This document shows positions 11,346-39,805 of a stretch of DNA of 64,000 nt, one piece after another. Under the pieces are notes generated by a model that made no database searches, was not told the DNA's origin, and saw only the letters and a program-made list of their open reading frames with translations. The stretch comes from Sulfitobacter noctilucicola (GTDB lineage: Bacteria; Pseudomonadota; Alphaproteobacteria; Rhodobacterales; Rhodobacteraceae). The position numbers and the translations under genes are program-made. The stretch lies in contig NZ_JASD01000008.1 of NCBI RefSeq assembly GCF_000622385.1, forward strand, positions 2,604,001 to 2,668,000. The letters run 5' to 3'. Numbering within the stretch: the stretch's first letter is position 1; every line of letters starts with the position of its first letter.

Positions 11346-11493
11346 GAATTACTCATTAAAATCAAATTCTTGATCCAATATTGCCCAGATCGTTTGTGAC
11401 TGAGCGTGCAGTCTAGCGGGATGACAAGCACCGCGCCAAGTGCTAGTTTGTCCGCCAGTTCAAATCAACGGCAGGGCAGGCGACAAGACATAC

Positions 11494-12945: not shown

Positions 12946-13220
12946 ACTTGTAGATCGTCTGGCGCTCCATACATCCGTTCAAAGTCAAATCGGTCGTAGT
13001 ATTGTTTCCAATCCCGGGAAACTCCCCGTGAAGCGGCTTGATTGTTGTGATATTCACGGCATCGAACTGGCCTGCTGCAACACATGGCCTCAAACCCAGC
13101 GCAGAAGGTTCTAAATGGCATAAAAATGCCTGAATTAACACGTAAACGGCTTCGGTAGCCCATATGAAGGGCATTGGGCGGCGTTTGATGACCCACTTGA
13201 GACGGGATGAGTTGGTACAG
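12946..13220. other. 275 bp gap upstream of the PKS operon
   Basis: No convincing complete gene lies here. The stretch must hold the promoter of the PKS-NRPS operon, but no clear -35/-10 or operator could be picked by eye. On the minus strand around 12950-13080 a short frame reads sensibly (SRDWKQYYDRFDFERMYGAP) without a start or family match; it may be the remnant of a lost gene or chance. Confidence 0.4.
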
Positions 13221-16200
13221 ATGACGACTTCGGAAAAGCACCCTCAGCGGGGTGAAGACATTGCAATTGTTGGCCTTTCCGTCAACGTCCCCGGTGCTGC
13301 CGGGGTGGATGCGTACTGGGCTAACCTCGCGCAAGGGGTGGAATCGATCCGCCGCTTGTCAGAGCAGGAACTGCTGGATGCAGGCGAGACTGCGCAAACT
13401 TTGGCCCAAAAGAACTACGTACCGGCCGCTGCCCTTCTGGAAGGGTTTGATACCTTTGACGCGGATTTCTTCGGTTTTTCGCCCAAAGATGCGGCGATCC
13501 TTGACCCACAGCACCGCAAGTTTCTTGAGGTGGCGTGGGAAGCGATGGAGCAGGCGGGCCATCCGCCCGAAACCATTCCCGGACCTGTCGGTGTCTACGC
13601 AGGCTGCGGTATGGGCAGCTATTTCTATTTCAATATCTGCTCTAACCCCGATCTGGTTGACGATGTGGGCATGTTCCTGCTGCGCCACACCGGCAACGAC
13701 AAGGATTTCCTGTCGACCCGTGTAAGCCATGTGTTTGACCTCAAAGGTCCGTCCATCAATCTGCAAACCGCGTGTTCCACGTCTTTGGTGGCCATACACT
13801 ATGCGTGTCAGGCGTTGCGCGCAGGCGAGATCGACATGGCGCTTGCAGGCGGTGTCACGATCGAGTTGCCGCAGGGGCGCGGCTATGTGTTCAAGGAAAA
13901 CGAAATTCTGTCGCCCGACGGGCATTGCCACGCCTTCGATCACCGCGCTCAGGGTACGGTGTTCGGTTCCGGTGCAGGTGCCGTGGCGCTGCGGCGTTTG
14001 TCGGATGCGGTGGCAGATGGGGATCATATCTGGGCGGTCATCAAAGGCTCTGCCGTCAACAATGACGGCGCAGCCAAGGCGGGCTACCTCGCTCCTTCCG
14101 TGGATGGGCAGACACAGGCGATTGCAGCGGCGCTTGATGCCGCAGGGGTGAAGGCACAGAGCATCGGCATGGTCGAATGTCACGGAACGGGCACGTATCT
14201 CGGTGATCCCATCGAGGTCGCGGCGCTGACCGAAGCCTATCGCGCGCAAACAGACGCGGTGGATTTCTGTCGCATTGGATCGGTGAAAACAAACATCGGC
14301 CATTTGGACACGGCGGCCGGTGTCGCTGGTCTGGCTAAAGCGACGCTCGCATTGCACCATAAACAGATGCCACCGTCTTTGGGGTACGAAGCCCCGAACC
14401 CCGCGATTCCTTTCAATGGCTCCCCGTTCAGTGTGAACGATACGCTGACCGACTGGCAGGCGGGTGACGGCCCGCGCCGTGCTGCGGTAAACGCGCTTGG
14501 GGTCGGGGGTACAAACGCCCACACGATCCTCGAAGAAGCGCCTTTGCGTGCGCCTTCCGAGGAAAGCGACTGGCCTTTTCATGCGTTGACGGTGTCTGGC
14601 GCGTCGAAAGCCGCGCTTGACGCAAATACCAAAGCGCTGGTGCAGCACCTGCGGCAGCACCCCGATCAGCCGTTGGCAGATGTGGCGTACACGCTCAAGA
14701 ACGGGCGGCGTGCGTTCGAGAAACGGCGTGTTGTTGTGGCTGAAACGCATGAAGAAGCGGCGCAACTGCTGGAGAACGCGGACACCCGCCGCGTGTTTAC
14801 CCATGATACGCTGGGCGACGCACCCGAAGTGGTGTTCATGTTTCCCGGTGGCGGGGCGCAATATGTTGGCATGGCACGGGATCTTTATGAAACCGAGCCG
14901 GAGTTTGCCGAGTGGATGGACAAGGGGCTTGAGCATCTCGCCCCGCAGCTCGACTATGACATACGCGCCATCTGGTTGCCTCAGGACGCTCAGTCCGATG
15001 AGGCGACAGAGCGTTTGAAGACACCGTCGGTGCAGCTTCCGCTGATTGCAATCGTGGAATACGCGCTGGCAAAACTGTGGATGTCATGGGGTGTTCAGCC
15101 TGCCGCGATGGTGGGCCACTCCATGGGCGAAAACGTCGCCGCTTGTCTTGCCGGGGTGATGAGCTTTGAGAACCTGATAGATCTGGTTCTGTTGCGCGGT
15201 CGCCTGTTCGATGAGGTGCCGGCGGGCGGGATGTTGTCCATTTCAGCACCGCTTGGCGCTATTGCGCCGCTGTTGGGTGACGACCTTGATATCGCGTCTG
15301 TAAACGCACCTGAGCTGATCGCTGTTTCAGGCCCGCAGGCGGCACTTGATGCGATGCAGGAACGGCTTGCCGGCGCAGGGCTTGAGTACCAGCGCATTGC
15401 CATCGACATCGCTGCACACAGCCGGATGCTGGAGCCGATCCTGGACCGCTACCGTGATTTTCTGGCAGGCCTTGATCTGCAAGCACCACAGATGCCGTTT
15501 GTCTCGAATCGATCCGGCGCGTTGATCACCGCCGACGAAGCGACAAGCCCCGATTACTGGGTCGGACAGCTGCGCAATACCGTAAATTTCGCTGACTGCA
15601 TCACGACATTGTCGGCCCCGCGCAAGCGTATCTATCTCGAAGTCGGGCCGGGCAAAGCGCTGTCCGCATTGGCACAGATGAGCGAAACAGTGGCACCTGC
15701 GCAGGTGCTGTCATCCCTGCGCCATCCCGAGCAGGATATCGCGGATGACATGTATTTCGTATCGGTGATCGGACGGCTTTGGGCCTGCGGGCTTGATGCG
15801 GACTGGTCACAGATTTGGGGCGAGGCACGGCGCAACCGTGTGGTCTTGCCAACCTATCAATTCCAGCGCGCACAATACTTTATCGAACCCGGCAAAGCTG
15901 CAGTGATCGAAGCGGCACCTTTGCTTGAGCGTCGTGATAACATGGAAGATTGGGGATCTGTGCCCGCGTGGCGCCCGCGTCTGGCTGAAACAGAGATCGA
16001 CGTTGCAACTGAACTGGCGCTTGCGCCGTCGAAGTGGCTGTTCTTTACAGACGAGGAGGGTGTCGCCGCTCCTGTTGTTGCGCGGTTGCGTGATGCGGGT
16101 CACCTCGTCACTTGTGTGCGCGCGGGCGATGCATTTGCTCAAACAGACAAAGAGACCTACACGATTGCACCCGAGCAAGGGCGCGCCGGATATGACCAAC

Positions 16201-19200
16201 TGATTGCCGCAGTGGCAGAACAAGAACGATCACCGGACCGCATTGCGCATTTCTGGCTGACCGACGATCATGTAGCACCACGGCCCGGCTCATCGAAATT
16301 CGACCGTAATCTGGAGCAAGGTTTCTGGAGTCTCACGTGGCTTGCGCAAGCGCTGTCTGAGGCGGGGCTGGACGCGCCTTTGCATCTATCGGTGTTCACC
16401 GCCGGTGCCGCACAGGTAAAGGGAGAGGACGTCCCACATCCCGAAGAAGCGATGGTTTCAGGCCCTGCAGGGGTCTTTGGCCGGGAATTGCCGGGCGTGA
16501 CTTGCGATCAGATCGATCTTGAGCCGCAGGCAAAAATTGACGACACCGCGAAAGGCTGGTTTGCCAAGCGCCCGCCCGAAACGGATGAAAACGATGACGA
16601 CCTTACGGACCGATTGCTAGAGGAATTGACTGCAGTTTCCGGCAACCGTGTTGTCGCCTACCGCGGCGCAAAACGGTTTGAGCAAAGCTACAAGCCGGTG
16701 CCCCTTGGCCCGAACGATAAAGCTGCATTCCGCGATGGCGGCACCTATCTGATTACGGGTGGTTTCGGTGGGATCGGCCAGACACTGGCCGCCGATATTC
16801 TGCGCGAAAACAAGGCGGCGGTTATTCTGCTGTCGCGTGAGGCGCTGCCGGAACGGTCCCTCTGGGATAGCTATCTTTCGACCCATGACACTTCAGATCG
16901 CACCGCCCGGCGGATGCGTGCGGCAATGCGCCTTGAGGAAATTGCCAAAATGGGTGGTGGCACGCTTGAGGTGGCAGCGGCCGACGTTGCCAACCTTGCG
17001 CAGATGCGCCGCGTTGTTTCGGACCTGACAGAGCGCTACGGCAGCGTCACAGGTGTGATCCATGCGGCCGGAACGCTGGATGACGCGCCATTGCTGGCTA
17101 AGTCGGACGCCCGGATTGACGCGGTTCTGGCCCCCAAGGTTCAAGGCTTGCGCGTGATCGATCAGGTGCTGCCTGATGGTGCGCTTGAACTGCTGGTGCT
17201 GTTTTCGTCCACGTCTACGGCCACCCGCGCGGCAGGACAGACAGATTATGTTGCCGCTAACGCATGGTTGAACGCCTTTGCCGCAGCCCGTCGCGGTGGC
17301 AAGACCAAGGTCGTCGCAGTCAACTGGGGGATCTGGTCAGATGTCGGCATGGCCGCCAGCGCCTTGCAAGGTGGCGCAGGCGATGTGCTGCCACCGCGCC
17401 AGATAGACAGTGCACTAATCAAGCAAGCTGGTGCCGATTCTGCCGGCGATCCGGTCTTTACCGCGCCGCTGTCGACAGATCATTGGATATTGGACCAGCA
17501 CCGGACAACCGACGGTCAGGCAATCCTGCCCGGTACCGGATATATCGCCGTGCTTGCAGAAGCAGCGGCGGCGCAAGGGCTGGCGGGCTTCGAGATTTCC
17601 GACCTCTATTTCCTGCGCGCCCTGCCGGTCGAGGCAGGCACGTCACGCGAGTTGCAGCTCACTTTGCATCCCGAGGGAGACGGCTTCGCGGTCGAGATGC
17701 GCAGCGATTGCAGGCTTCAGGGGAAATCCGGCTGGCAACTGCACGCGCAGGCCATGGTATCGCCTCCTCAGGTGGCGCGCCCGAATGCGCTTGATCTCGC
17801 CGCGATCGAAAGTCGATGCCCCGACACGCAAACCGCGCCTGAGGGCGGACGCCTTAAGACGGCGCAGGAGGCGCATCTGGACTTCGGTCCCCGCTGGCAT
17901 GTCTTGCAAAACACGCGAACGGGCGCGGGCGAGGGGCTTGCCGATCTGTCATTGCCTGTCGCATTAGAAAGCGACCTGCGAGACGGTCATGTGTTGCATG
18001 CAGGATTGATGGATCTTGCGACCGGTTGGGCGATGGAGCTTGTCCCGGGCTATGACACATCCCACCTCTGGGTGCCGGTCTCCTATGGCATGATCCGTGT
18101 GCATGCACCGTTGCCGGCCCGGATACGCTCATGGGTACGTTTGTCGGACGGGGCGGCCAGCGACGGCTTTGCACGGTTTGACATCGCGCTGACCGATGTC
18201 TTTGGCAATGTGCTGGTTGAGGTCGGTGATTTTGAGATGAAACGCCTTGAGGGTGGATTTGGCACCACGCCACTGACATCCGCCGAAGTTCGCTTTGAAG
18301 ATGAGGATGACAGCGGGGCAGACCTGACACCGGCGGAAGAGCGCCTCGCTTATCTGGTCTCACAGGGGATCCGTGCAGAAGAAGGGCCGCAAGCGCTGCG
18401 CCGTGCACTGGCATTGGACGTCCCGCAAGTCATGGTGTCTTCGGTGCCTCTGGCCCAGTTAATCGCGCAAGCCAACCAGCCGGTGCAGGACAGCGCGCCT
18501 GTAGGTCAAAGTTTTGAGCGGCCCGATCTTGACGGGTCATTCGTGGCACCGCGCAACCGTATCGAAGAACGGCTGGCGGATCTTTGGCAAAATCTGCTGG
18601 GTGTCAGCCCTGTGGGGGTCGAGGACAGCTTTTTTGATCTTGGTGGGCATTCCCTGATCGCGGTGCGGCTTTTCGCCAGCATCAAACGCGAATTCAAGGT
18701 GGAGTTCCCCATCTCCGTTCTGTTTGAGGCTCCGACAATCGCCAAATGTGCGGCACTAATCGCTGCTGAAACAGGCGACGCGGGCGATCTTGCGGATGGA
18801 GAAGTCACCGCTGCGCCGGTTGAACGTTTCGAGTTCCTTGTGCCGCTCAATCAAAGTGACCGCACAGATGCACCGCCGCTGTTCATTGTGGCGGGTATGT
18901 TTGGCAACGTGCTGAATCTGCGGCATCTGGCACTGCCTTTCAGTAAAGAGCGCCGGGTGTATGGCGTGCAGGCCCGCGGACTTATCGGCGAAACTGACCC
19001 ACACCGTGATGTGAGCGCCGCCGCCGCCGATTATCTGGCAGAGATTAAGCGGGTCCAGCCACAAGGCCCCTATCTGGTGGCAGGATATTCCGGTGGCGGT
19101 ATCACCGCCTACGAAATGGCGCAGCAATTGCGCGATGCCGGAGACGCAGTTGGTGCTGTGATCTTGCTTGATACCCCGCTGCCTGTGCGTCCGTCGCTGA

Positions 19201-19700
19201 ACAGACCGGACAAAGCGTTGATAAAGATTGCGGAGATGCGCAGCAAAGGGCCGCGCTTTTTGCTGGAATGGGCGCAAAAGCGCTGGGCGTGGGAAAAGCA
19301 GAAACGCAGCCAGACGGGTGATGTGCCAACCGTCGGCACGGGGGCGGAGTTCAACAATCTCAAGGTGCAGGACGCATTTCTCGAAGCGGTCGGCAAGTAC
19401 AAGACACCGAAGTGGGATGGACCGCTTGCGCTTTTCCGTCCCGCGCTTGACCGTCATTGGGCGGTCACCGGCGGCAACTGGGTAAGTCAGGAACGCGAGT
19501 ATGTGTTCGAGGACAACCAGTGGCGCCAATTCGCGCCACAGCTTGAGGTGATCGAAGTGCCGGGCAATCACGAAAGCATGGTGCTCGCACCAAATGTCAC
19601 CACGCTGGCGCAAGAAGTTGGCGAAGCTATTGCACGAGGCTTGCAGTCGCAAGGCGCAGAAGCGCCCGATGTCTGGTCACAGGCGACAGCGGCGGAATGA
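13221..19700 (+). CDS. type I polyketide synthase, KS-AT-KR-DH-ACP-TE
   Basis: A single-module PKS of about 2159 residues (numbering from ATG 13221; ATG 13164 is also possible). The ketosynthase (~10-440) has Cys185 in ACSTS, His321 in HGTGT and His361 in NIGHLD. The acyltransferase (~520-850) has Ser634 in GHSMGE. A structural subdomain precedes the ketoreductase (ITGGFGGIG near 1175, catalytic Tyr in TDYVAAN). A dehydratase-like fold follows (His in DQHRTTDG, Asp in HAGLMDLA), then an ACP (Ser1811 in LGGHSL) and a thioesterase (Ser1957 in GYSGGG). No enoylreductase or methyltransferase is seen. The product would be an alpha,beta-unsaturated or hydroxy acid. Its stop overlaps the next gene. 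Confidence 0.93.
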   Translation: MTTSEKHPQRGEDIAIVGLSVNVPGAAGVDAYWANLAQGVESIRRLSEQELLDAGETAQTLAQKNYVPAAALLEGFDTFDADFFGFSPKDAAILDPQHRKFLEVAWEAMEQAGHPPETIPGPVGVYAGCGMGSYFYFNICSNPDLVDDVGMFLLRHTGNDKDFLSTRVSHVFDLKGPSINLQTACSTSLVAIHYACQALRAGEIDMALAGGVTIELPQGRGYVFKENEILSPDGHCHAFDHRAQGTVFGSGAGAVALRRLSDAVADGDHIWAVIKGSAVNNDGAAKAGYLAPSVDGQTQAIAAALDAAGVKAQSIGMVECHGTGTYLGDPIEVAALTEAYRAQTDAVDFCRIGSVKTNIGHLDTAAGVAGLAKATLALHHKQMPPSLGYEAPNPAIPFNGSPFSVNDTLTDWQAGDGPRRAAVNALGVGGTNAHTILEEAPLRAPSEESDWPFHALTVSGASKAALDANTKALVQHLRQHPDQPLADVAYTLKNGRRAFEKRRVVVAETHEEAAQLLENADTRRVFTHDTLGDAPEVVFMFPGGGAQYVGMARDLYETEPEFAEWMDKGLEHLAPQLDYDIRAIWLPQDAQSDEATERLKTPSVQLPLIAIVEYALAKLWMSWGVQPAAMVGHSMGENVAACLAGVMSFENLIDLVLLRGRLFDEVPAGGMLSISAPLGAIAPLLGDDLDIASVNAPELIAVSGPQAALDAMQERLAGAGLEYQRIAIDIAAHSRMLEPILDRYRDFLAGLDLQAPQMPFVSNRSGALITADEATSPDYWVGQLRNTVNFADCITTLSAPRKRIYLEVGPGKALSALAQMSETVAPAQVLSSLRHPEQDIADDMYFVSVIGRLWACGLDADWSQIWGEARRNRVVLPTYQFQRAQYFIEPGKAAVIEAAPLLERRDNMEDWGSVPAWRPRLAETEIDVATELALAPSKWLFFTDEEGVAAPVVARLRDAGHLVTCVRAGDAFAQTDKETYTIAPEQGRAGYDQLIAAVAEQERSPDRIAHFWLTDDHVAPRPGSSKFDRNLEQGFWSLTWLAQALSEAGLDAPLHLSVFTAGAAQVKGEDVPHPEEAMVSGPAGVFGRELPGVTCDQIDLEPQAKIDDTAKGWFAKRPPETDENDDDLTDRLLEELTAVSGNRVVAYRGAKRFEQSYKPVPLGPNDKAAFRDGGTYLITGGFGGIGQTLAADILRENKAAVILLSREALPERSLWDSYLSTHDTSDRTARRMRAAMRLEEIAKMGGGTLEVAAADVANLAQMRRVVSDLTERYGSVTGVIHAAGTLDDAPLLAKSDARIDAVLAPKVQGLRVIDQVLPDGALELLVLFSSTSTATRAAGQTDYVAANAWLNAFAAARRGGKTKVVAVNWGIWSDVGMAASALQGGAGDVLPPRQIDSALIKQAGADSAGDPVFTAPLSTDHWILDQHRTTDGQAILPGTGYIAVLAEAAAAQGLAGFEISDLYFLRALPVEAGTSRELQLTLHPEGDGFAVEMRSDCRLQGKSGWQLHAQAMVSPPQVARPNALDLAAIESRCPDTQTAPEGGRLKTAQEAHLDFGPRWHVLQNTRTGAGEGLADLSLPVALESDLRDGHVLHAGLMDLATGWAMELVPGYDTSHLWVPVSYGMIRVHAPLPARIRSWVRLSDGAASDGFARFDIALTDVFGNVLVEVGDFEMKRLEGGFGTTPLTSAEVRFEDEDDSGADLTPAEERLAYLVSQGIRAEEGPQALRRALALDVPQVMVSSVPLAQLIAQANQPVQDSAPVGQSFERPDLDGSFVAPRNRIEERLADLWQNLLGVSPVGVEDSFFDLGGHSLIAVRLFASIKREFKVEFPISVLFEAPTIAKCAALIAAETGDAGDLADGEVTAAPVERFEFLVPLNQSDRTDAPPLFIVAGMFGNVLNLRHLALPFSKERRVYGVQARGLIGETDPHRDVSAAAADYLAEIKRVQPQGPYLVAGYSGGGITAYEMAQQLRDAGDAVGAVILLDTPLPVRPSLNRPDKALIKIAEMRSKGPRFLLEWAQKRWAWEKQKRSQTGDVPTVGTGAEFNNLKVQDAFLEAVGKYKTPKWDGPLALFRPALDRHWAVTGGNWVSQEREYVFEDNQWRQFAPQLEVIEVPGNHESMVLAPNVTTLAQEVGEAIARGLQSQGAEAPDVWSQATAAE

Positions 19701-20704
19701 CTTCGATGACCTCTCCCCGCGTGCTTGTGGTGCTTTTGAATTATCGCACGGCCCAGATGACCCTCAAGGCGGCACAGGCCGCTTTGGCGGACATGCCGAA
19801 GACCGCAGAGCTTGTGATTGTCGATAACGCTTCGGGCGACGGGTCCGCTGAAGTCTTGGGGCAGGCCATCAAAGATAATAATTGGGACGCAGGCGATCGT
19901 GTCCGGCTGATCCTGTCACCGGTCAATGGCGGCTTTGGCGCGGGCAATAACCTTGGCATGCAGGCTGGCATGTCGGACGGCACAAAGCCCGACTATTTTT
20001 ATATCCTGAATTCCGATGCATTTCCCGATGCCGGATGTCTGGCCGCGCTGATTGAGCATCTACAGGCCAAGCCACAGGCAGGGTTTGCCGGCAGCCACGT
20101 GCGCGGCGAAGACGGCGTGGCCCACACAACCGCATTCCGATTTCCTTCCATTGCGGGTGAATTTGAGGGCGCTGCCCGTTTCGGGCCGATTACACGCATG
20201 CTTAAGTCCTCTGTCGTCGCTCCTGATTTGCCGAGAACAACCACGCAAGTGGATTGGGTCGCGGGTGCATCTGTGCTGGTTCGCGCTTCTATGATTGACG
20301 CCATCGGCGGATTTGATGAGACCTTCTTTCTCTATTTCGAAGAAACCGATCTATGCAAACGCGCGGCAGATGCCGGATGGGAATGTTGGTATTTACCAGA
20401 GGCGGGCGTTGTCCACATCGGCTCTGTCTCTACGGGGATGAAGGAATGGCAGCGGATGCCAACCTACTGGTTCGCTTCGCGCCGTCACTATTATACGAAA
20501 AACCATGGCGCGCTCTATGCGGCCGCGGCGACGGTTGCACGTCTGGCCGGCGGCGCGATCCATGTGGTGCGGTGCAAACTGACGGGACGGCCGACACATG
20601 ATGCGCCACGGTTCCACCGTGATCTGATTGCATTTAGCCTGGGATTAAGCCCACGAGTCCGAACTGTTGAGCCCCGCCGGGCCTTACCGGAGAAAAACAC
20701 ATGA
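19697..20704 (+). CDS. GT2 family glycosyltransferase (rhamnosyltransferase-like)
   Basis: A 335-residue GT-A enzyme. The start LVVLLNYRTAQMT and VIVDNASGDGS give the nucleotide site, YILNSDAFPD the DxD-like metal motif, VDWVAGASVLVR the acceptor region and FLYFEETDLCKRAADAGW the catalytic acidic motif. It resembles WbbL/RfbN-type rhamnosyltransferases in layout. It sits between the PKS and NRPS genes, overlapping both by 4 bp, which implies it acts in the same process. It may glycosylate the assembly-line product or build the sugar that carries it. Donor sugar is unknown. Confidence 0.87.
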   Translation: MTSMTSPRVLVVLLNYRTAQMTLKAAQAALADMPKTAELVIVDNASGDGSAEVLGQAIKDNNWDAGDRVRLILSPVNGGFGAGNNLGMQAGMSDGTKPDYFYILNSDAFPDAGCLAALIEHLQAKPQAGFAGSHVRGEDGVAHTTAFRFPSIAGEFEGAARFGPITRMLKSSVVAPDLPRTTTQVDWVAGASVLVRASMIDAIGGFDETFFLYFEETDLCKRAADAGWECWYLPEAGVVHIGSVSTGMKEWQRMPTYWFASRRHYYTKNHGALYAAAATVARLAGGAIHVVRCKLTGRPTHDAPRFHRDLIAFSLGLSPRVRTVEPRRALPEKNT

Positions 20705-23700
20705 CCGCCACCTTTAGTCCCCAAGGGTTCTCTGCACTGTTGATCGGTGATGAATCCCTGACCATCGCCTGCGGTGACATGATGTTGTCGGGCGGCCACC
20801 GGCTTGAGGCTGTTATTACGGGCGATGCCACGGTTAGGGGCTGGGCCGAGGGGAAGGGTATCACCGTACTGGCGCAACCGCGTGATGCAATCGGGGCAAG
20901 TCTGCATGCGGACTGGTTGCTGAGTATCGCAAATTTAAGGATGATCCCTGACGATGTGCTGGCGCTTGGACGCAAAGGGGCGATCAACTTTCACGACGGC
21001 CCTTTGCCTGCGTATGCCGGACTGAACACGCCTGCTTGGGCCATTATCAATGGCGAGACCACGCACGGTGTAAGTTGGCATATGATGGAGGGCGGCGTGG
21101 ACGAGGGCGATCTGCTGGCCCAACAGATGATCGATATCGCGCCACAGGAGACTGCCTTCAGTCTGAACTCCAAATGCTATGCGGCAGGGATGGAGAGCTT
21201 TGGCACCGTGCTATCGCAACTGGAGGCTGACACGCTGGAGCGCAGGCCCCAAGACCTGAGCGAACGCAGCTATTTCGCCCGCGATGAACGCCCCGAGAAT
21301 ATGGGCGTTCTGGATTTCCACAAACCGGCGTCGAAGCTTGATGCGCTGGTGCGCGGGCTCGATTTCGGCAGCTATTGGAATCCGCTGACCACAGCGAAAC
21401 TTGCGGTGCCGCATGCTTTCTGGCGCATCGGGTCGCTGGAGGTCGTGACCGGAGAGACTGCCGATGCAGGACAGGTTCTGCGCGTTGGCAAAGATAGTTT
21501 GGTTATCGGTACAGAAAGCGATCCGGTGATGTTACGTGGTCTCACCGATCTGGATGGCACTGATATCGACCCGAGCGTCGTTTTCTCTGCTGGTGATGAA
21601 ATTGCGGGTGCCGATCTCCCTGCATTCAATGTCTCATCCGAACCGCGCTGGCGGCGCAGATTGTCAGCGGCTGGTCCGGTCGATCTGGTGTTTTCCCATG
21701 CGGCCATAGGGGACACTGACATGCAGTCGGTCAATGTGCCTGTACCGGCGCAGATGTCCGCTTCCGATCTTGCGGCAGTTGCCGCACTTTCCTTGCTGGG
21801 CAGCGGTGACAGCACGGACGGGTGCATCGCGCTTGCAACGACCCAAATTCATCCGCTTGCTACCGACTGGGGTCCTTTGCGCGTCACCGCTGTGGGTAAA
21901 GACAGTGCCAAAGCAAGTGTTGCGCGGATAACAAAGAACGTATCGGATGCGAAAGACGCGGGCGGCATCGCACGTGATCTGATGCTGCGCGATCCCGATC
22001 TCGGTAAGGGGCATGTGCCGCAGATTGGTCTGTCGTTCACTTCAACCCCGATCATGTCGCTTGCAGCGACCGTCTGTGTCAGTGATGGCGTGGCTGCACT
22101 GCATTTTGACGCATCGCGTCTGGACGCCCCTTCCGCCGGTCTGCTCGCTGCGCGGATTGAGGCGGCGCTGAACCTCTTTAGTGATGCGCGAACTTGCGAT
22201 GATCTTTGGGCCATGCCGCAAAGCGAACTTCAGCTGCTGCGCGACTGGAACGCAACCGACCGCGCCTACGACGCCACCCCGATCCACGCAGCGTTCGAGG
22301 CACAGGTAGCCCGCACGCCAGATGCAGACGCACTCGTGTGCGAAGGGAAGACGCTGAGTTACGCAGCACTGAACGCTGCCGCGAACCGTCTGGCGCATGT
22401 GCTACGGGGCGCGGGTTTGGCACCGGGCACGCCGGTCGGCCTTTATATGGCGCGCGGGGTTGACCTTTTGACGGGTGCGCTTGGCATCCTCAAGGCGGGC
22501 GGTGCCTATGTGCCACTTGATCCCGGTTATCCGGCTGACCGGATTGCGCATTACATCAGCGACAGCGCGGCACCCCTGATTGTCAGTCATTCGACGCTTG
22601 CCGCGAACCTGCCCGATCATTCCGCACAGGTGATCGAAATTGATACGCAGCCCGATCTTGGACAGGCCAGCCCTGACAATCCTGAACCGCGTGCGACTGC
22701 GGATGATCTTGCTTATCTTATCTATACTTCCGGCTCCACCGGCACGCCCAAAGGGGTGATGGTCAGCCATGGAAACGTCGCGAATTTCTTTGCCGGTATG
22801 GATGACCGGATTGACCACGAAGCAGGCGCTGTCTGGCTTGCCGTTACATCACTCAGTTTCGATATCTCTGTGCTTGAACTCTTTTGGACACTGGCTCGCG
22901 GGTTCAAGCTGGTGCTTGCAGGGGACGAAAGCCGTACGTTGGTCTCGAACGGGCCGATTGCGGTCTCTGACGCCAAAATGGATTTCAACCTGATGTACTG
23001 GGGGAATGATGATGGTGTCGGGCCCAAGAAATACGAGCTTTTGCTTGAAGGGGCGAAGTTCGCGGATGCAAACGGCTTTAACGCGGTCTGGACACCGGAA
23101 CGGCACTTCCATGCCTTCGGCGGTCCTTATCCCAATCCATCGGTAACCGGTGCTGCGGTTGCGGCAGTGACGCAGAATTTGGCCGTGCGGGCAGGGTCCT
23201 GCGTGGCACCACTGCACCATCCGGCCCGCATTGCCGAAGAATGGGCTGTTATCGACAATCTGACCAACGGACGGGTTGGGCTGGCCATTGCATCAGGCTG
23301 GCAGCCTGATGACTTTGTGCTGCGGCCAGAAAATACGCCGCCCGCGAACAAACCTGCGATGTATGCCGCAATCGACCAGCTGCGCAGTCTGTGGCAAGGC
23401 GATGCCGTCGAATTCCCAAAGGCGGATGGCAGCATGCATGCGGTCGTCACCCAGCCGCGTCCCGTGTCGAAAAAGCTGCCCATCTGGGTGACCACGGCGG
23501 GCAATCCTCAAACCTGGAAGGAAGCGGGCGAAATCGGCGCAAACGTACTGACCCACCTGCTGGGGCAAAGCATTCAGGAGGTCGGGGACAAGATCAAAAT
23601 CTATCATCAGGCCCTGCGTGAGGCAGGCCATGATCCAGCAGATTTCACCATAACGCTGATGCTGCACAGCTATCTGGCCGACACGCGCGAAGCCGCTGAA

Positions 23701-25254
23701 GAGGTGGCGCGTGGCCCGATGAAAGACTACCTGCGCTCTGCTGCGGCACTGATAAAACAATATGCTTGGGCATTTCCCGCATTCAAGCGCCCCGAAGGCA
23801 CATCAAATGCCTTTGATCTGGATCTTGAGGGAGTGTCCGACGAAGAGCTAGACGCGATCCTTGAGTTCGCTTTCCAACGCTATTTCAACGACAGTGGCAT
23901 GTTCGGCACCGTGGCTGACGGCGTGGCGCGGGTCGAAGCGCTCAAGCAGATCGGCGTGACCGAAGTTGCCTGTCTGATCGACTATGGCATTGATCCGGCC
24001 CTGGTCATGGAAGGGCTGAAGCCGCTGGCCGAGGTTCATAAGCTCAGCAATCAGGGCGCGGCGCTGGCGGACGATGATTTCTCGCTTGCGGCCCAGATCA
24101 TCCGGCACAAAGTCACCCATCTGCAATGTACCCCGTCTATGGCCCAAATGCTTGTGACAAATGATGAGGCGCGTATGGCATTGGGTCAGGTGTCACACCT
24201 TATGGTAGGCGGCGAGGCGCTGCCGGGATCGTTGGTAACCGCGTTGCAGTCAGCCACCCGCGCCAGCCTGCAGAACATGTATGGCCCGACTGAGACAACG
24301 ATCTGGTCGACCACCCATAAGGTTACGGATGGCACGGCGGCAACGGCACCCGTTGGAACGCCGATCGCGAACACAGAAGTCTTCATTTTGGATGACAACA
24401 TGGGCCTGCAACCTGTTGGTCAAGAAGGACATCTTTGGATCGGCGGGGATGGCGTGACACAGGGCTACTGGCAGCGCGACGTGCTTACCGCAGAGCGTTT
24501 TGTCGACAACCCGTTCGGCTCCGGCAAGATCTATGCCACCGGAGATCTGGCCGTCTGGGATGCACAAGGCTGTCTGCACTTTGCGGGTCGGGCCGATGCA
24601 CAGGTCAAAATACGGGGCCACCGGATCGAACTGGGCGAGATCGAGGCCCGCCTTGCCGAGTTGCCCGGCGTCACACAGGCGGTCGTTAGCACGGTCGAAG
24701 CGCAGGGCAGCACGCATCTGGCAGGCTACGTCACAGCGACACATGAGATTGACCCCGACACCGCCCGCGCTGCTTTGGCCAAGGTATTGCCCGATATTAT
24801 GGTGCCCAGCTACTTGATGACGCTAGATGCGATGCCCCTGACCCCGAACAAGAAGATCGACCGCAAAGCGCTGCCGATGCCCGAGCGCCGCCGCGCCTCA
24901 CGTGCACAGGCACCGGCCACGCCACAGAGCGGCACACAAGGTGTAATCGCACAGGTCTGGTCGACGCTGCTGGGTTTGTCCGATATCCGTGGTGAGGATA
25001 ACTTCTTTGCGCTGGGCGGTCATTCGCTGCTCGCTGTGCAGGCCCACCGTGACATCAAGGCAGCGCTTGGCACAGACAGCCTGTCTATCACCGATATCTT
25101 CCGGTTCCCCACGCTGGACGGACTGGCCGGCCACATCGACAAGGCGTCCGGCAATCAAACAGCGACTGCGGCCACAACGCCGGAGCCCGCAAAGTCCGAG
25201 ACAATTTCAAAGCGTCGCGCCATGCGGGCAGGGCGCAGCAAGGCAGGCACCTGA
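20701..25254 (+). CDS. NRPS: formyltransferase - C remnant - adenylation (interrupted by luciferase-like monooxygenase) - PCP
   Basis: A 1517-residue protein. Residues 1-~300 are a Fmt/ArnA-type formyltransferase with conserved Asn-x-His (INFHDGPLPAYAG) and Asp (GGVDEGD). Residues ~300-510 resemble only the end of a condensation domain; no HHxxxDG motif is present. The adenylation domain has A3 at ~672 (YTSGSTGTPKG) and A4 (FDISVLE), then is interrupted at ~753-1110 by an FMN-dependent luciferase-like monooxygenase of the MupA/Atu3671 type. It resumes with A5 (NMYGPTETT), A7 and A10 (KKIDRKAL). The PCP serine is in LGGHSLLA (~1440). Pocket residues read DILQMGMIW, close to the glycine code DILQLGLIW. 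It probably makes a formyl-aminoacyl starter for the PKS. Confidence 0.92.
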   Translation: MTATFSPQGFSALLIGDESLTIACGDMMLSGGHRLEAVITGDATVRGWAEGKGITVLAQPRDAIGASLHADWLLSIANLRMIPDDVLALGRKGAINFHDGPLPAYAGLNTPAWAIINGETTHGVSWHMMEGGVDEGDLLAQQMIDIAPQETAFSLNSKCYAAGMESFGTVLSQLEADTLERRPQDLSERSYFARDERPENMGVLDFHKPASKLDALVRGLDFGSYWNPLTTAKLAVPHAFWRIGSLEVVTGETADAGQVLRVGKDSLVIGTESDPVMLRGLTDLDGTDIDPSVVFSAGDEIAGADLPAFNVSSEPRWRRRLSAAGPVDLVFSHAAIGDTDMQSVNVPVPAQMSASDLAAVAALSLLGSGDSTDGCIALATTQIHPLATDWGPLRVTAVGKDSAKASVARITKNVSDAKDAGGIARDLMLRDPDLGKGHVPQIGLSFTSTPIMSLAATVCVSDGVAALHFDASRLDAPSAGLLAARIEAALNLFSDARTCDDLWAMPQSELQLLRDWNATDRAYDATPIHAAFEAQVARTPDADALVCEGKTLSYAALNAAANRLAHVLRGAGLAPGTPVGLYMARGVDLLTGALGILKAGGAYVPLDPGYPADRIAHYISDSAAPLIVSHSTLAANLPDHSAQVIEIDTQPDLGQASPDNPEPRATADDLAYLIYTSGSTGTPKGVMVSHGNVANFFAGMDDRIDHEAGAVWLAVTSLSFDISVLELFWTLARGFKLVLAGDESRTLVSNGPIAVSDAKMDFNLMYWGNDDGVGPKKYELLLEGAKFADANGFNAVWTPERHFHAFGGPYPNPSVTGAAVAAVTQNLAVRAGSCVAPLHHPARIAEEWAVIDNLTNGRVGLAIASGWQPDDFVLRPENTPPANKPAMYAAIDQLRSLWQGDAVEFPKADGSMHAVVTQPRPVSKKLPIWVTTAGNPQTWKEAGEIGANVLTHLLGQSIQEVGDKIKIYHQALREAGHDPADFTITLMLHSYLADTREAAEEVARGPMKDYLRSAAALIKQYAWAFPAFKRPEGTSNAFDLDLEGVSDEELDAILEFAFQRYFNDSGMFGTVADGVARVEALKQIGVTEVACLIDYGIDPALVMEGLKPLAEVHKLSNQGAALADDDFSLAAQIIRHKVTHLQCTPSMAQMLVTNDEARMALGQVSHLMVGGEALPGSLVTALQSATRASLQNMYGPTETTIWSTTHKVTDGTAATAPVGTPIANTEVFILDDNMGLQPVGQEGHLWIGGDGVTQGYWQRDVLTAERFVDNPFGSGKIYATGDLAVWDAQGCLHFAGRADAQVKIRGHRIELGEIEARLAELPGVTQAVVSTVEAQGSTHLAGYVTATHEIDPDTARAALAKVLPDIMVPSYLMTLDAMPLTPNKKIDRKALPMPERRRASRAQAPATPQSGTQGVIAQVWSTLLGLSDIRGEDNFFALGGHSLLAVQAHRDIKAALGTDSLSITDIFRFPTLDGLAGHIDKASGNQTATAATTPEPAKSETISKRRAMRAGRSKAGT

Positions 25255-25946
25255 TGGGCATGCGCGACCCGAAGATGCACGCAACTATCGCGCCACAGAT
25301 CGCAGCGCTTTATGATCTTCCTGTCGCGGTCGGTGTCACTGACCCCCGCGTGGCGCAACCTGAACCGATGGGCCGTGAGGCGCGCCATTTGAGGCGTGCA
25401 TTTCCGGTCCGTAAACGAGAATTCGCAGCAGGGCGAACGGCGGCCCGTCAGGCCATGACCGCGCTTGGCCGATCCCCCGAACCGATACCAGCACATCCAG
25501 ATCGCGCGCCGCACTGGCCAGAGGGGCTGAGTGGCAGCATCTCGCACACAGGGAAGTTGTGCGCGGCTGTGCTGACCACAGCGCCGTTTCATCTGGGGCT
25601 GGATATGGAAGAGAATGCCGATCTGGAGGTTGGTCTGCTGGCGACCATCTGCTCGGACCGCGAGCTTGCACACATTGATGGACCTTACAGGTTGCGACTG
25701 GCCAAGCTTATTTTCTGCGCAAAAGAAGCCGCCTATAAAGCCCAATATCCGATCACGCGTACGCTTTTCGGGTTCGATCATATTGAGATATCGCTTGATC
25801 TGGCGCAGCAACGCTTTACCGCAGCATTTACAAAACCTGTGGGGTGCTTTGCTGTGGGCGATAAAATGCCGGGCAAGTTCGACGGGATTGAGGATCATCT
25901 TGTCACAGCGGTCTGGACAGATCACGGTGGCTGCAAAGGAGCCTGA
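25254..25946 (+). CDS. 4'-phosphopantetheinyl transferase (EntD/Sfp-like)
   Basis: A 230-residue enzyme that converts apo-ACP/PCP to holo forms with CoA. The family motifs are present: LSGSISHTGKLCAA, GLDMEENADLE (metal-binding Asp) and FCAKEAAYKAQYP (the F/W-x-x-K-E-x-x-x-K motif). Its ATG overlaps the NRPS stop (TGATG), so it is a dedicated activator of the adjacent ACP and PCP domains. The length and the layout with an N-terminal DPRV and RREF-like basic region match the EntD subgroup. Confidence 0.93.
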   Translation: MGMRDPKMHATIAPQIAALYDLPVAVGVTDPRVAQPEPMGREARHLRRAFPVRKREFAAGRTAARQAMTALGRSPEPIPAHPDRAPHWPEGLSGSISHTGKLCAAVLTTAPFHLGLDMEENADLEVGLLATICSDRELAHIDGPYRLRLAKLIFCAKEAAYKAQYPITRTLFGFDHIEISLDLAQQRFTAAFTKPVGCFAVGDKMPGKFDGIEDHLVTAVWTDHGGCKGA

Positions 25947-25950
25947 TCAG

Positions 25951-26895
25951 ATGTCACGATGGACCCGCCGTGCGGCGATGGGGGTGCTGGCGCTCACCGG
26001 AGCCTACGCAGCCTACGCTTATGTCACAGGGCGGCGAGGCAAAGATGTTGCCGATGCGCTTTATTCCAATCCGTTGCCGCGCCCCGAGGGAAGTCTGTCG
26101 GTTTACCATCTGGGTCATTCTTTGGTGGGACGCGACATGCCCGCGATGCTTGCGCAGCTTGCGGGCGACGGCCACGAATATGATAGCCAGCTTGGCTGGG
26201 GGACCTCGCTCAAAGAACATTGGGAGCCTGATTTGCCCGTTAACGGGTTCGAGCAGGAAAACGATCGTCCTCGTTTTCGGGCCGCCAAAGAGGCGCTTCA
26301 GTCAGGTGGATATGATGCGGTTGTGCTGACGGAGATGGTCGAGATTGCCGATGCTGTCCGCTACCACGACAGTGCAGAATATTTGGCAAGATGGGCAGGT
26401 CTGGCGTGGGATGCCAACCCGAAGGCGCGTATCTACCTTTACGAGACATGGCACCACACCAATGACAATGCTGGCTGGCTTGAGCGAATTGATAGTGATC
26501 TTCGCACGTATTGGCAGGGACGCGTGATCTACCCCGCACTTGCGGCGGGGGATGCGCCTATTCATCTGATCCCTGCGGGGCAGGTGAAAGCGGCATTTGT
26601 ACGCAGCATTGAGGAACGCGGTGGCGTGGCCGAAGTCCAAGGTGTGAACGATCTTTTTGCCAAGCGTGACGATGGCACGCCGGATACCATTCACTTTAAC
26701 GATCTGGGTGCCTATCTGGTTGCGCTTACCCACTACGCTGTTCTTTATCACCGGTCGCCAATCGGTTTGCCGAATGTTTTGATGCGTGCGGATGGGACGC
26801 CCGCGACGGCACCGTCACCCCAGGTCGCTGGGTTGATGCAGCAGATCGTCTGGGATGTTGTGCGGGCGCATCCCGAGACGGGAGTAGCGGCATGA
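25951..26895 (+). CDS. membrane-anchored SGNH-type hydrolase/acyltransferase-like protein
   Basis: A 314-residue protein. An N-terminal twin-arginine-like, hydrophobic segment (RRAAMGVLALTGAYAAYAY) should export or anchor it in the periplasm. Block I is LGHSLVG (the serine in GHS replaces the GDS of GDSL enzymes). The C-terminal catalytic pair appears as DTIHFNDLGAYL, a DxxH motif. It starts 4 bp after the phosphopantetheinyl transferase and overlaps the next gene, with which it shares LIPAGQ and the same block order. SGNH proteins in polysaccharide loci often transfer or remove acyl groups, so a role in attaching the assembly-line acyl group is inferred, not shown. Confidence 0.72.
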   Translation: MSRWTRRAAMGVLALTGAYAAYAYVTGRRGKDVADALYSNPLPRPEGSLSVYHLGHSLVGRDMPAMLAQLAGDGHEYDSQLGWGTSLKEHWEPDLPVNGFEQENDRPRFRAAKEALQSGGYDAVVLTEMVEIADAVRYHDSAEYLARWAGLAWDANPKARIYLYETWHHTNDNAGWLERIDSDLRTYWQGRVIYPALAAGDAPIHLIPAGQVKAAFVRSIEERGGVAEVQGVNDLFAKRDDGTPDTIHFNDLGAYLVALTHYAVLYHRSPIGLPNVLMRADGTPATAPSPQVAGLMQQIVWDVVRAHPETGVAA

Positions 26896-29417
26896 GTGGT
26901 CTGAACGCGCTCTATGCGGTGTTGATGGTGGGTCATAGCCTGTTTGGCACGACCGGCCCGACGATGCTTGAACAGGCGTTGCTCGCAGGGACTGGTGATG
27001 CGCAGGTCGCCGCGCAGATCATCAACGGCGCGCCACTGCGCTACAACTGGGAAGAATCCGACGCTGCCGAAGGTGTCGACGCCCGTGCCGTTCTGCCGGA
27101 AGGTGGCACAACGCACCTCATTCTCACCGAAGCGATCCCGCTTGAGAACCATACGAAATGGTCCGAGACTGAAGTATATGCACAAGCCTTTGCAAATCTC
27201 GCGATCTCCGCCAATCCATCTGCCAAAGTCTATGTACAGGAAACGTGGCACAGCCTGAAAAGCGGCACAGGTGAGTCGGTCGAACATGACGAGAAGGCCG
27301 GTACGCCGTGGCGTGAGCGGCTGGAGCAGGACCTGCCTGTCTGGGAAACAATCGTCGCACAGATTGCCGCCGCCAACAGATCGGACAAGGCGACTGTTGC
27401 ATTGATCCCCGCGGGGCAGGCAATGGGCCGCCTTCATGACGAGATCGCGGCAGGCCGGATCACAGGTCTGTCCGGAATTGATGCGCTATTTGCTGACGAC
27501 ATACACCTTAACGACACCGGCCACTATTTCGTGGCCATGGTGCAATACGCCGTAGTCACAGGGCTCGATCCATTGGGTTTGCCTGTGGACTTCAAAGACC
27601 GCTTTGGTAAGTCTTTCGACACACCCGATCAGGATCTCTCCCGCGAGCTGCAACGCGTGGCATGGGAAGCGGTGCAGGCATACGGAGGGGCGACAGTAGC
27701 CCCAGTACCGCCGGCACCTTTGGCCCGTAAAGTGACAGCGCCTGCTGCACCAACCGGGCCGCCTGACCGTCCTGTCGGCGAGTTGGTGAAGGTGCCGGAA
27801 GGGGCTGTCGAGGGAACGAACGCGGTTGCGATTGGTCTGGCTGGCATCGCCGACTGGGGTACCCAGAACCCGTTTCTCGACCTGATGAAGACCGCCCGTC
27901 CTTGGCTGGGTCATAAGCCCGGACAATTCGGCGGGATGGAGTATGACGCACTGTTATCGGGCGGCTTTCTGGACGCAGACGGCTGGCCGGTTAAGATGCC
28001 GCGCAGCCTCAGCAGTATCGGCACGCTCATCCTGACAGATATGCCACCCGAGGCGGTCTCTCTCAAAGGGCGCTACAGGCTCAGCTTTGACGGAACAGGC
28101 GTAATCGAGGTTGGCGGGCTGGCGCAGAACGTGCGCTACGGCAAGGGAGAAGTGACGTTCGATTACACGCCCGGTCCGGGCAGCGTCGACATTCGCATCC
28201 AGCGCATCAACACCACCAACCCGCCGCGCAACATCGCCGTTGTTCACACCGACAACATCCGCCGGTTCGAACGGGGCGCGAAGTTCAATCCGTCGTGGAC
28301 TGCGCGGATCGGCCAGTTTCGAGCGCTGCGTTTCATGGATTGGTCGCAGACAAATGATTCAAAACTGTCAGCTTGGGGTGATCGCCCGCTTGTGGGTGAT
28401 GTTACCTATGCGACGGGTGTTCCCTTGGAAGTGATGATCAGGCTTGCCAATGAATTGGAAATGGATGCTTGGTTCAACATGCCGCATCTGGCAGATGACG
28501 ACTTCGTGCGCGCCTATGCGACCATGGTGCGGGATCAGCTTGATCCGCAATTGACTGCATATGTCGAGTTTTCAAATGAAGTCTGGAACTGGCAGTTCGA
28601 ACAGGCCCGTTGGGCAGATGCCATGGCGCTGGAGCGGTGGGGTCAGAAGGACAAATGGATGCAGTTCTACGGCATGCGCGCAGCCGAAGTGGCCCGCATC
28701 TGGACGGATGTGTTCGCAGACGCGACGGATGGGCGGTTGGTGAATGTTGCGGCAAGCCAGACTGGCTGGCTGGGGCTTGAGACTGAAATTCTAGAGGCAC
28801 CGCTGGCGGTCGAAGATGGCGCGGCTGCACCCAAGACGGCCTTCGATGCCTATGCCGTCACCGGCTATTTCGGTGGTATCCTGGGGCTGGAAGACCGCGG
28901 CCCCATGGTCAACGCTTGGCTGGAGGAAAGCGAGGCCAAAGCGGTTGCAGATGCGCAGGCACAGGGCCTCAAGGGGGATGCTGAAACACGGTATGTCGCG
29001 CAGCACCGCTATGACTATGCCAGCAAACTGGCGGGACGTGAGTTGATGGACGGTGCCGTCAGCGGCAATCCGGCCGACACGTTGTCTGACCTTCTGGGTC
29101 GCGTCTGGCCCTATCATGCTCAGGTTGCCCGCAGCCATAATATGGACCTCGTCATGTATGAGGGGGGCAGTCATGTGGTCGGAATTGGACCGCAGGTCGA
29201 TGACGCAGCGCTGACCGCCTTTTTCCAGCACTTTAATTATTCGGCGGAGATGGGTGCGCTCTACGGTACATTACTTGAGGGTTGGAAAGCGGTGGGCGGA
29301 CAGCTCTTTAATGTATTCAACGATGTCTACGCACCCACAAAATGGGGATCTTGGGGCACGCTGCGGCATCTGGATGACAGCAACTCCCGCTGGGACGCGG
29401 TACTGGCATTTCAATGA
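26892..29417 (+). CDS. SGNH-like domain fused to glycoside-hydrolase-like domain
   Basis: An 841-residue two-domain protein. Residues 1-~255 parallel the upstream SGNH protein: VGHSLFG, QETWHSL, LIPAGQAMG and DDIHLNDTGHYF. After a Pro/Ala-rich linker (~260-295) comes a ~540-residue region resembling clan-A TIM-barrel glycoside hydrolases, with a probable acid/base Glu in YVEFSNEVWNWQF and a candidate nucleophile Glu in VMYEGGSH. No signal peptide is evident, since the catalytic serine lies at about residue 16. This is odd for a carbohydrate-active enzyme in an EPS locus. It overlaps its neighbours by 4 bp on both sides. The exact GH family could not be assigned. Confidence 0.75.
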   Translation: MSGLNALYAVLMVGHSLFGTTGPTMLEQALLAGTGDAQVAAQIINGAPLRYNWEESDAAEGVDARAVLPEGGTTHLILTEAIPLENHTKWSETEVYAQAFANLAISANPSAKVYVQETWHSLKSGTGESVEHDEKAGTPWRERLEQDLPVWETIVAQIAAANRSDKATVALIPAGQAMGRLHDEIAAGRITGLSGIDALFADDIHLNDTGHYFVAMVQYAVVTGLDPLGLPVDFKDRFGKSFDTPDQDLSRELQRVAWEAVQAYGGATVAPVPPAPLARKVTAPAAPTGPPDRPVGELVKVPEGAVEGTNAVAIGLAGIADWGTQNPFLDLMKTARPWLGHKPGQFGGMEYDALLSGGFLDADGWPVKMPRSLSSIGTLILTDMPPEAVSLKGRYRLSFDGTGVIEVGGLAQNVRYGKGEVTFDYTPGPGSVDIRIQRINTTNPPRNIAVVHTDNIRRFERGAKFNPSWTARIGQFRALRFMDWSQTNDSKLSAWGDRPLVGDVTYATGVPLEVMIRLANELEMDAWFNMPHLADDDFVRAYATMVRDQLDPQLTAYVEFSNEVWNWQFEQARWADAMALERWGQKDKWMQFYGMRAAEVARIWTDVFADATDGRLVNVAASQTGWLGLETEILEAPLAVEDGAAAPKTAFDAYAVTGYFGGILGLEDRGPMVNAWLEESEAKAVADAQAQGLKGDAETRYVAQHRYDYASKLAGRELMDGAVSGNPADTLSDLLGRVWPYHAQVARSHNMDLVMYEGGSHVVGIGPQVDDAALTAFFQHFNYSAEMGALYGTLLEGWKAVGGQLFNVFNDVYAPTKWGSWGTLRHLDDSNSRWDAVLAFQ

Positions 29418-30247
29418 AAACAAGCATTCTGATCCCCGCGCATAATGAAGCGGCTTATCTGCCCGCCTGTCTGGAGGCGGTGATCGCATCCGAGCCGGTT
29501 GCAGGTGGGGCGGAAGTGATTGTGATCGCCAATGGCTGCACCGATGACACGGCGCAGATTGCGCGGGATTTCGCGGTCAAGGCCGAAGCCGCAGGGTGGA
29601 CGCTTATCGTGCTGGACCTTGCGCAAGGGGGCAAGCTGAACGCCTGGAACCAAGGCGAAGCAGCCGCAAGTGGCGAGGTGCTGATCTATCTTGATGCGGA
29701 CGTTGTTGTCTCGCCTCCGCTTATGACGCAGCTCAGCGCCACACTTGATGTGGCAGGTCCACGCTATGCAAGCGGCTCACCAAATGTGACCATCACCGGA
29801 AAGGACGCATTGACGCGGAATTATACCCGTTTCTGGCTGACCACGCCTTTTATGGTCCACGGTGTGCCGGGTTTCGGCGTTTTTGCGATGAACCGGGCAG
29901 GGCGCGCGCGCTGGGGCGCTTGGCCGGATATTATATCGGACGACACTTTTGCGCGGCTTAACTTTGCACCAGAAGAACGCCACCGCGTTCCTGCGTCCTA
30001 TGACTGGCCGATGATCGAAGGGTTTGCTGCCTTGGTGCAAGTTCGCCGCAGGCAGGATATTGGCGTTGCAGAGATCGAAAACCGCTATCCTGAACTGATC
30101 GCCAACGACGACCCGCATGATCGCACGGTGCCCTTGTGGAAGCGCGCTGTCAGAGATCCGGTGGCCTTTGTTACCTTCGCACTGGTGCGTTCCGCCATCC
30201 GCCTGCCAGTGCTGAAGTCGGATAACCGATGGGTGAGGGGGCGTTAA
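29414..30247 (+). CDS. GT2 family glycosyltransferase
   Basis: A 277-residue GT-A protein. SILIPAHNEAAYL and VIVIANGCTDDTAQ form the nucleotide-binding region, and IYLDADVVVSP carries the DxD motif. GVPGFGVFAMNRAGRARWG and the acidic IISDDTFARLNF match the acceptor/base region. It is the last gene of the coupled PKS-NRPS operon, overlapping the SGNH-GH stop. Its TAA overlaps by 4 bp the stop of the convergent GT4 gene. It probably contributes a sugar to the molecule made by this operon. Confidence 0.85.
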   Translation: MKTSILIPAHNEAAYLPACLEAVIASEPVAGGAEVIVIANGCTDDTAQIARDFAVKAEAAGWTLIVLDLAQGGKLNAWNQGEAAASGEVLIYLDADVVVSPPLMTQLSATLDVAGPRYASGSPNVTITGKDALTRNYTRFWLTTPFMVHGVPGFGVFAMNRAGRARWGAWPDIISDDTFARLNFAPEERHRVPASYDWPMIEGFAALVQVRRRQDIGVAEIENRYPELIANDDPHDRTVPLWKRAVRDPVAFVTFALVRSAIRLPVLKSDNRWVRGR

Positions 30248-39785: not shown

Positions 39786-39805
39786 TGGAGGGATCCTTGA
39801 AAGAG

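Follow-up and report, generated by a model that had tools for sequence, protein, structure and literature searches.

A run of seven genes on the forward strand was analysed in a 64,000-nucleotide window (the whole stretch of DNA considered here; contig NZ_JASD01000008.1, positions 2,604,001 to 2,668,000, assembly GCF_000622385.1) of Sulfitobacter noctilucicola. In order, the run encodes a polyketide synthase (PKS; gene A), a family 2 glycosyltransferase (GT2; B), a non-ribosomal peptide synthetase (NRPS; C), a phosphopantetheinyl transferase (PPTase; D), an SGNH hydrolase-fold protein (E), a fusion of an SGNH domain with a glycoside hydrolase (GH) domain (F) and a second GT2 (G). Successive genes overlap by 4, 4 and 1 bp, are then separated by 4 bp (25947–25950), and overlap again by 4 and 4 bp, and the open reading frame (ORF) coordinates confirm the five overlaps and single gap given in a preliminary description of this stretch. 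The PKS starts at 13164 or at an in-frame ATG at 13221, nineteen codons in, both being equally plausible. Taken from features that are directly observed, namely the gene set, its conserved residues, its co-occurrence across genomes and its exopolysaccharide (EPS) setting, the PKS-NRPS line probably builds a short acyl substituent, predicted to be glycine-derived, of a Wzx/Wzy-dependent EPS. The conserved parts suggest a small glycine-based side group for a polymer rather than a free secreted compound. Many marine bacteria carry this two-enzyme line, of a type known from antibiotic biosynthesis, in their polysaccharide locus.

Domain content of the assembly line and its partners

Comparison with the Pfam and NCBIfam databases assigned families to five of the seven products (PKS, NRPS, PPTase and both GT2 enzymes). 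The N-terminus of the NRPS is a formyltransferase (PF00551 and PF02911; Pfam matches at residues 66–165 and about 200–287), followed by an adenylation (A) domain in two pieces, with motif A4 (719–728) before and motif A5 (1190–1203) after an inserted MupA/Atu3671-type flavin monooxygenase (TIGR04020 at 762–1112; 464.6 bits against a cut-off of 244.45), and by a peptidyl carrier protein (PCP) domain at 1416–1479. Conservation was assessed in alignments of 115 NRPS and 83 PKS rows, which comprise complete ORFs only, are not dereplicated, include the window's own copy and hold some loci twice. Carrier Ser1442 is kept in 115/115 rows, and N96, H98 and D134 of the formyltransferase, which we take to be its catalytic residues, in 114, 112 and 114. 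The specificity code of the A domain, at positions set by eye and presumed to correspond to GrsA numbering, reads DILQMGMIWK in the window. Its letters D, I, L and Q at four positions, as well as K1385, occur in 115/115 rows, with the first nine letters being DILQMGMIW in 61/115 and DILQLGMIW in 38/115. Four glycine A domains with such a monooxygenase are all reported to have the code DILQLGMIWK (PMC12283262).

The best sequence match over the NRPS among solved structures is LgrA of linear gramicidin biosynthesis, in which, as in CongA of conglobatin biosynthesis, a formyltransferase is fused ahead of the A domain and PCP. No condensation domain (PF00668) was listed for the whole NRPS protein or for residues 175–530, and no thioesterase (TE) domain was found in it; a terminal amidating module of the myxothiazol type, which includes a condensation domain and a TE, is therefore not what is encoded here. 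Since both domains are lacking and a formyltransferase is present, the protein is, on its domain content, an initiation module (formyltransferase, glycine-type A domain with monooxygenase, and PCP) and not an ordinary elongating NRPS, which refines the plain NRPS label it had been given. CongA is likewise reported to be a loading module of formyltransferase-A(Gly) type, with glycine as its predicted substrate and a PKS as the next enzyme in line (PMC4504003). Unlike in LgrA and CongA, a flavin monooxygenase interrupts the A domain, the line comprises a single PKS module and the genes occur in EPS loci. The myxothiazol and melithiazol modules share the monooxygenase between A4 and A5 of a glycine A domain and a near-identical specificity code; this monooxygenase is reported to alpha-hydroxylate the glycyl group, after which cleavage leaves a glyoxyl thioester, but those modules end the line and release an amide (PMC10204066). 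The NRPS may nevertheless work like the myxothiazol module in chemical terms. Because a glycine code associated with such monooxygenases, the chemistry of the latter and the formyltransferase-A(Gly) precedents combine, glycine loading, formylation and oxidation most likely constitute the start of the chain.

The PKS is a single module with ketosynthase (KS), acyltransferase (AT), split dehydratase (DH), ketoreductase (KR), acyl carrier protein (ACP) and TE domains. Their presumed catalytic residues are kept in 83/83 rows for the KS (C-H-H), AT (Ser), KR (Ser-Tyr-Asn), DH (His-Asp) and ACP (Ser), and the TE Ser, Asp and His in 83, 83 and 82 of the 83. PPTase D is the sole 4PPT_N match in the genome.

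E and F gave no Pfam match at an E-value of 0.001, with a DUF4886 match for E not significant (E-value 0.05), and their SGNH assignment is backed by fold comparison. An SGNH fold with Ser and Asp-x-x-His is found in E and in the N-terminus of F, and a clan GH-A barrel with two catalytic Glu residues in the C-terminus of F. Foldseek returned one match to E under 1e-3, a carbohydrate esterase, and a second structure aligner a clear match to DUF4886. Unlike the DUF4886/SGNH hydrolases (4i8i), E has no significant Pfam match and is tied to PKS-NRPS genes. Sequence searches of the PDB with E and with the GH half of F yielded nothing useful. On the basis of its structural model and of orthologue N-termini, E is probably anchored in the membrane.

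Distribution and exopolysaccharide setting

Among 149 genomes of the order, the NRPS (E-values up to 1e-150) occurs in 64/149. PKS matches (up to 1e-200) were found in 73/149. Comparison by eye shows that the 64 with E-values of 0 are the genomes that have the NRPS; the remaining nine match only through the KS-AT region of different synthases, most of them larger. In 63/64 genomes the two genes share a contig at a distance of 1 to 2 kb (by eye), and in G082 they are on different contigs. Gene E (up to 1e-20) was detected in 44 genomes, all among the 64 and including two weak matches (G006 and G092), and in 0/85 others (hypergeometric 1.5e-22, kinship ignored). As E lies on another contig in two genomes (G046 and G134) and 11 to 24 kb away in three (G062, G073 and G077), its tie to the PKS-NRPS pair is not mere adjacency. 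The NRPS is rare outside the family, being found in 7/385 genomes of a class sample (two outside the family) and 16/398 of a phylum sample (six outside the family, two of which match only from the A domain on). At the thresholds applied, genome G070, of the same genus, matches neither the PKS nor the NRPS nor E and offers a natural comparison strain.

Gene order was compared in the best 80 of 501 loci with NRPS relatives from named genomes, the nearest named relatives, by NRPS, being from Sulfitobacter. The PKS, GT2 and NRPS genes stand together on one strand in 80/80 loci, with the PPTase next in 76/80, E in 63/80 and F in 58/80 (script thresholds); all seven genes are present in 53/80, and some loci without the full set are contigs too short to tell. 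This conservation of gene order is far above chance. The constant co-occurrence of PKS, NRPS, SGNH and glycosyltransferase genes, which the preliminary description had suggested testing, holds for the first two, and the SGNH gene is confined to genomes that have them (44/44), but neither it nor the glycosyltransferase is obligatory.

At least one homologue of a core EPS class (Wzx, Wzy, Wzz, CpsD, Wza, WecG or priming transferase) lies within about 10 kb in 77/80 loci, and at least two classes in 71/80. By comparison, a core class was found in 0/20 evenly spaced 20 kb control stretches of the one chromosome carrying the window, mostly somewhat shorter than the loci, and a GT2 match in one. Of the three loci without a core EPS gene, L061 and L098 cover about 10 kb each, and the third, L089 of Hydrogenophaga flava, covers 24.6 kb. 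On gene content the link of the PKS-NRPS pair to EPS loci is well supported, and the earlier placement of the assembly line among polysaccharide genes stands, both for these loci and for the window, where such genes occur on both sides of the run. One contig, L058, carries a Rhodobacteraceae-type locus at the usual identity under the title Nocardioides marinus, probably through mislabelling or contamination of the record.

The same setting recurs in other lineages. Seventeen plasmid records have at least 80 % NRPS coverage, and six of the seven examined contain the PKS and NRPS inside EPS loci (Parasedimentitalea, Ruegeria conchae, two Paracoccus, Aminobacter and Shinella). In Paracoccus, Aminobacter, Shinella, Hydrogenophaga, G758 and G656 the pair stands beside flippase, export, priming-transferase or chain-length genes, and in a Deinococcus record (lower coverage) sugar-transferase and UDP-glucose dehydrogenase genes adjoin a related set. 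In a tree of forty NRPS rows (eleven labelled EPS, three non-EPS and twenty-six unlabelled, with L089, labelled EPS, later found without a core EPS gene in its 24.6 kb), one clade of 33 rows, with 100/100 support, unites the Rhodobacterales, Hydrogenophaga, Aminobacter, Shinella, G758 and G656. A second clade comprises Aliiroseovarius M344, G486 and G795, which are outside EPS loci, together with G428, with the Deinococcus row grouping weakly with it on a long branch.

Several of these loci carry additional genes. An SGNH-like gene stands beside the PKS in G656 and G816, and in the latter an AT3 acyltransferase gene accompanies it next to the related PKS and NRPS (L139:1990-4163), an OafA-like pairing in separate genes. 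The PPTase and E genes of Hydrogenophaga sp. IBVHS1 are separated by an extra NRPS gene (L075:16004-21928), which encodes two AMP-binding, carrier, condensation and TE domains. In two Paracoccus loci (L118:1-1593 and L123:1-2531) the EPS locus includes a second NRPS that adjoins a WecB/TagA/CpsF glycosyltransferase. The VPLPA-CTERM exosortase xrtD is encoded near the PKS-NRPS pair in Ruegeria conchae (L117:3146-4798) and near the distant NRPS in Aliiroseovarius M344 (L121:36407-38008).

Predicted acyl substituent and competing explanations

In the pathway predicted from the domains, the NRPS would load glycine on its PCP and formylate it, and the embedded flavin monooxygenase would oxidise it, most likely at the alpha carbon, giving an N-formyl-alpha-hydroxyglycyl starter or, should the carbinolamide collapse as in myxothiazol release, a glyoxylyl one. 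The PKS would then add one unit, presumably malonyl, to be reduced and dehydrated, with PPTase D arming both carriers. The least certain step would be a cytoplasmic transfer in which the PKS TE acylates a sugar of the lipid-linked repeat unit, an acceptor built with the help of GT2 B, before flipping by Wzx; cytoplasmic acylation might alternatively be carried out by an unrecognised partner in place of the TE. Outside the inner membrane, E and F would trim or rearrange the acylated glycan. Acylation in the cytoplasm, ahead of flipping, is favoured because the run lies amid genes for EPS repeat-unit synthesis and flipping, has no exporter of its own, and is not accompanied by an MBOAT or AT3 protein.

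Searches of the window's genome gave 0 matches to MBOAT (PF03062) and 0 to AT3 (PF01757), with 3/14 and 10/14 control genomes, respectively, being positive. Periplasmic acylation of the Dlt, AlgIJX or OafA type, which depends on such a protein, was accordingly considered and set aside for this genome, no membrane partner having been found. A route in which the acyl group is first exported and E then serves as the periplasmic acyltransferase, attaching it to the glycan as DltD, AlgJ/X, PatB or OafA would, is quite improbable for the same reason, the known transmembrane acyl route being missing. Without the usual membrane partner, the SGNH proteins are more likely to edit the glycan as esterases or transacylases than to perform the primary acyl transfer. 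The earlier suggestion of an acyl group destined for a surface glycan is supported as regards the EPS link; for the SGNH proteins, named there as candidate acyl transferases or esterases, primary acyl transfer is the less likely role.

Weighing against a polymer substituent are the absence of E from 20/64 genomes with the PKS-NRPS pair, the lack of a signal peptide in the fused form of F and the result of a simple hydropathy scan, which called no membrane segment in the window's E. The PKS TE might just as well release the acyl chain as a free acid. In Aminobacter, Shinella, G758 and G656, moreover, the PKS and NRPS genes diverge without an intervening GT2 B, so the glycosyltransferase is not an obligatory partner. 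Lastly, one of the seven plasmid records, that of Aliiroseovarius M344, is of non-EPS type, and the distant NRPS clade (41–45 % identity) lies outside EPS loci, next to denitrification genes, zinc-uptake and ABC-transporter genes or TRAP transporter genes; sugar-epimerase and aminotransferase genes occur close to the NRPS of one member, G428. Routine occurrence outside EPS loci, which the preliminary description had named as contrary evidence, is not seen for the main clade, the clade found elsewhere being a separate, more distant one.

The terminal TE and the distant clade would also fit a diffusible glycosylated small molecule (a signal, siderophore or antibiotic) whose locus is shared with EPS genes through common sugar donors or regulation, and hybrids of PKS and NRPS usually yield free metabolites. 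A Paracoccus marcusii plasmid of 225,058 bases, from Cancer pagurus, carries the NRPS. P. marcusii CP157, from C. pagurus, has a 225 kb plasmid, pCP157_02, whose HSR-NRPS-PKS hybrid cluster has been classed as secondary metabolism in a paper with neither polysaccharide nor glycosyl among the terms of its main text (PMC8273931). Such a molecule is unlikely, however, given that the EPS setting is kept across the Rhodobacterales, Aminobacter, Shinella and most Hydrogenophaga loci, that E occurs only with the PKS-NRPS core and that neither the run nor the flanking ORFs scanned include a dedicated exporter, receptor or resistance gene, an absence noted earlier for transporter and resistance genes in the run. 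The Pfam-scanned ORFs around the run, which are not every ORF, include no siderophore receptor or drug exporter. An ordinary antibiotic or siderophore cluster is less likely in view of the EPS setting.

The position of GT2 B between the PKS and NRPS in 80/80 loci could also be explained if the product were a building block that is glycosylated by B and polymerised into the repeat-unit backbone as a glycosyl-polyketide. This is very improbable, since GT2 enzymes are common in EPS loci anyway and B does not have that position in the four loci with divergent genes.

Among the closest known systems are Wzx/Wzy EPS loci that specify acyl substituents, such as those for xanthan and succinoglycan; like the surroundings of the run, they encode priming transferase, glycosyltransferases, flippase, chain-length and export proteins. 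The known decorations of these polymers derive from acetyl-CoA, phosphoenolpyruvate or succinyl-CoA, and not from an assembly line. In the mycobacterial sulfolipid system, Pks2 with PapA supplies an acyl group to a sugar, as proposed here, but there the acyls are long fatty ones, the sugar is trehalose, no Wzx/Wzy polymer is involved, the acyltransferases are separate and no glycine is loaded. Mostly narrow literature searches, with subscription papers and preprints outside their scope, found no description of this gene set or of a PKS-NRPS in EPS decoration, in agreement with the preliminary description, in which no such system was known.

A broader reading can be put forward tentatively, with rather more doubt than confidence: that several orders decorate Wzx/Wzy EPS with an assembly-line acyl group, begun with N-formyl-alpha-hydroxyglycine or glyoxylate, delivered by a TE without a transporter, and edited by an SGNH esterase confined to these genomes. 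Secondary metabolism would then be joined to cell-surface glycans, and the PKS-NRPS clusters of 64/149 sampled genomes, which genome mining would presumably tend to class as unknown secondary metabolites, would be cell-surface glycan genes. The target for chemists would shift from a small molecule in the medium to a polymer substituent, with a defined handle gained on how marine biofilm polysaccharides acquire unusual groups, and the glycine-loading module with an inserted monooxygenase would gain a role as chain starter.

Neighbouring genes and further observations

The seven genes and their neighbours are listed below. The parts of a Wzx/Wzy-type EPS locus found in the window include a priming transferase, a flippase and an export protein.

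Table. Features of the seven-gene run (A–G) and its surroundings, by position in the window
Feature	Position	Strand	Basis
GT2-type glycosyltransferase (flank)	8541..9584	+	PF13704
GT2 glycosyltransferase (flank)	9581..10525	+	PF00535
WecG/TagA/CpsF glycosyltransferase (flank)	10542..11345	-	PF03808
Polytopic membrane protein, 501 aa, Wzy/O-antigen-ligase-like	11440..12945	+	Position, eight or nine hydrophobic segments
A: monomodular type I PKS, KS-AT-DH-KR-ACP-TE	13164..19700	+	Pfam/NCBIfam, catalytic residues
B: GT2 glycosyltransferase between PKS and NRPS	19697..20704	+	PF00535
C: NRPS loading module	20701..25254	+	Formyltransferase, A domain with inserted luciferase-like monooxygenase (LLM/MOX), PCP
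D: Sfp-type PPTase	25254..25946	+	4PPT_N
E: SGNH hydrolase-fold protein, N-terminal helix, probably membrane-anchored	25951..26895	+	Ser57, Asp245, His248
F: SGNH domain (about 6–266) and clan GH-A domain (about 306–841; Glu563, Glu757)	26892..29417	+	Fold
G: GT2 glycosyltransferase	29414..30247	+	PF00535
GT4 glycosyltransferase (flank)	30244..31434	-	PF13692
Wzx-type flippase (flank)	31546..32895	+	PF13440
Wzz/Wzc-type chain-length protein (flank)	32907..34232	-	Weak PF02706 (E-value 0.0014, below cut-off), two hydrophobic segments
CpsD/CapB-type kinase (flank)	34369..35316	-	PF01656; homologue named CpsD/CapB in syntenic record
Priming sugar-phosphate transferase (flank)	35365..36111	-	PF02397
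Wza-type polysaccharide export protein (further flank)	42094..43356	+	PF02563

The polytopic protein upstream of the PKS has no Pfam family match, and a homologue of it is found in 60/80 loci. A scan of the region 5' of the PKS called 0 promoters and 0 terminators (0.3 and 0.6 expected). An ORF at 31431–31850 on the reverse strand, with homology in 65/80 loci, was considered as a small conserved gene and rejected as an antisense shadow of wzx (31546–32895), so that the flippase gene sits just outside the seven-gene run.

A second polysaccharide set extends over window positions 37789–52485, with two GT2 and one GT4 glycosyltransferases, a second flippase, Wza, a fusion of WecG with a priming transferase, and a second polytopic Wzy-like protein. 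At 2320–3944, a few kb ahead of the EPS genes, an H-NOX (haem-NO-binding) gene is followed by a GGDEF diguanylate cyclase gene, a pair that may possibly act as a switch from NO to c-di-GMP for the EPS genes.

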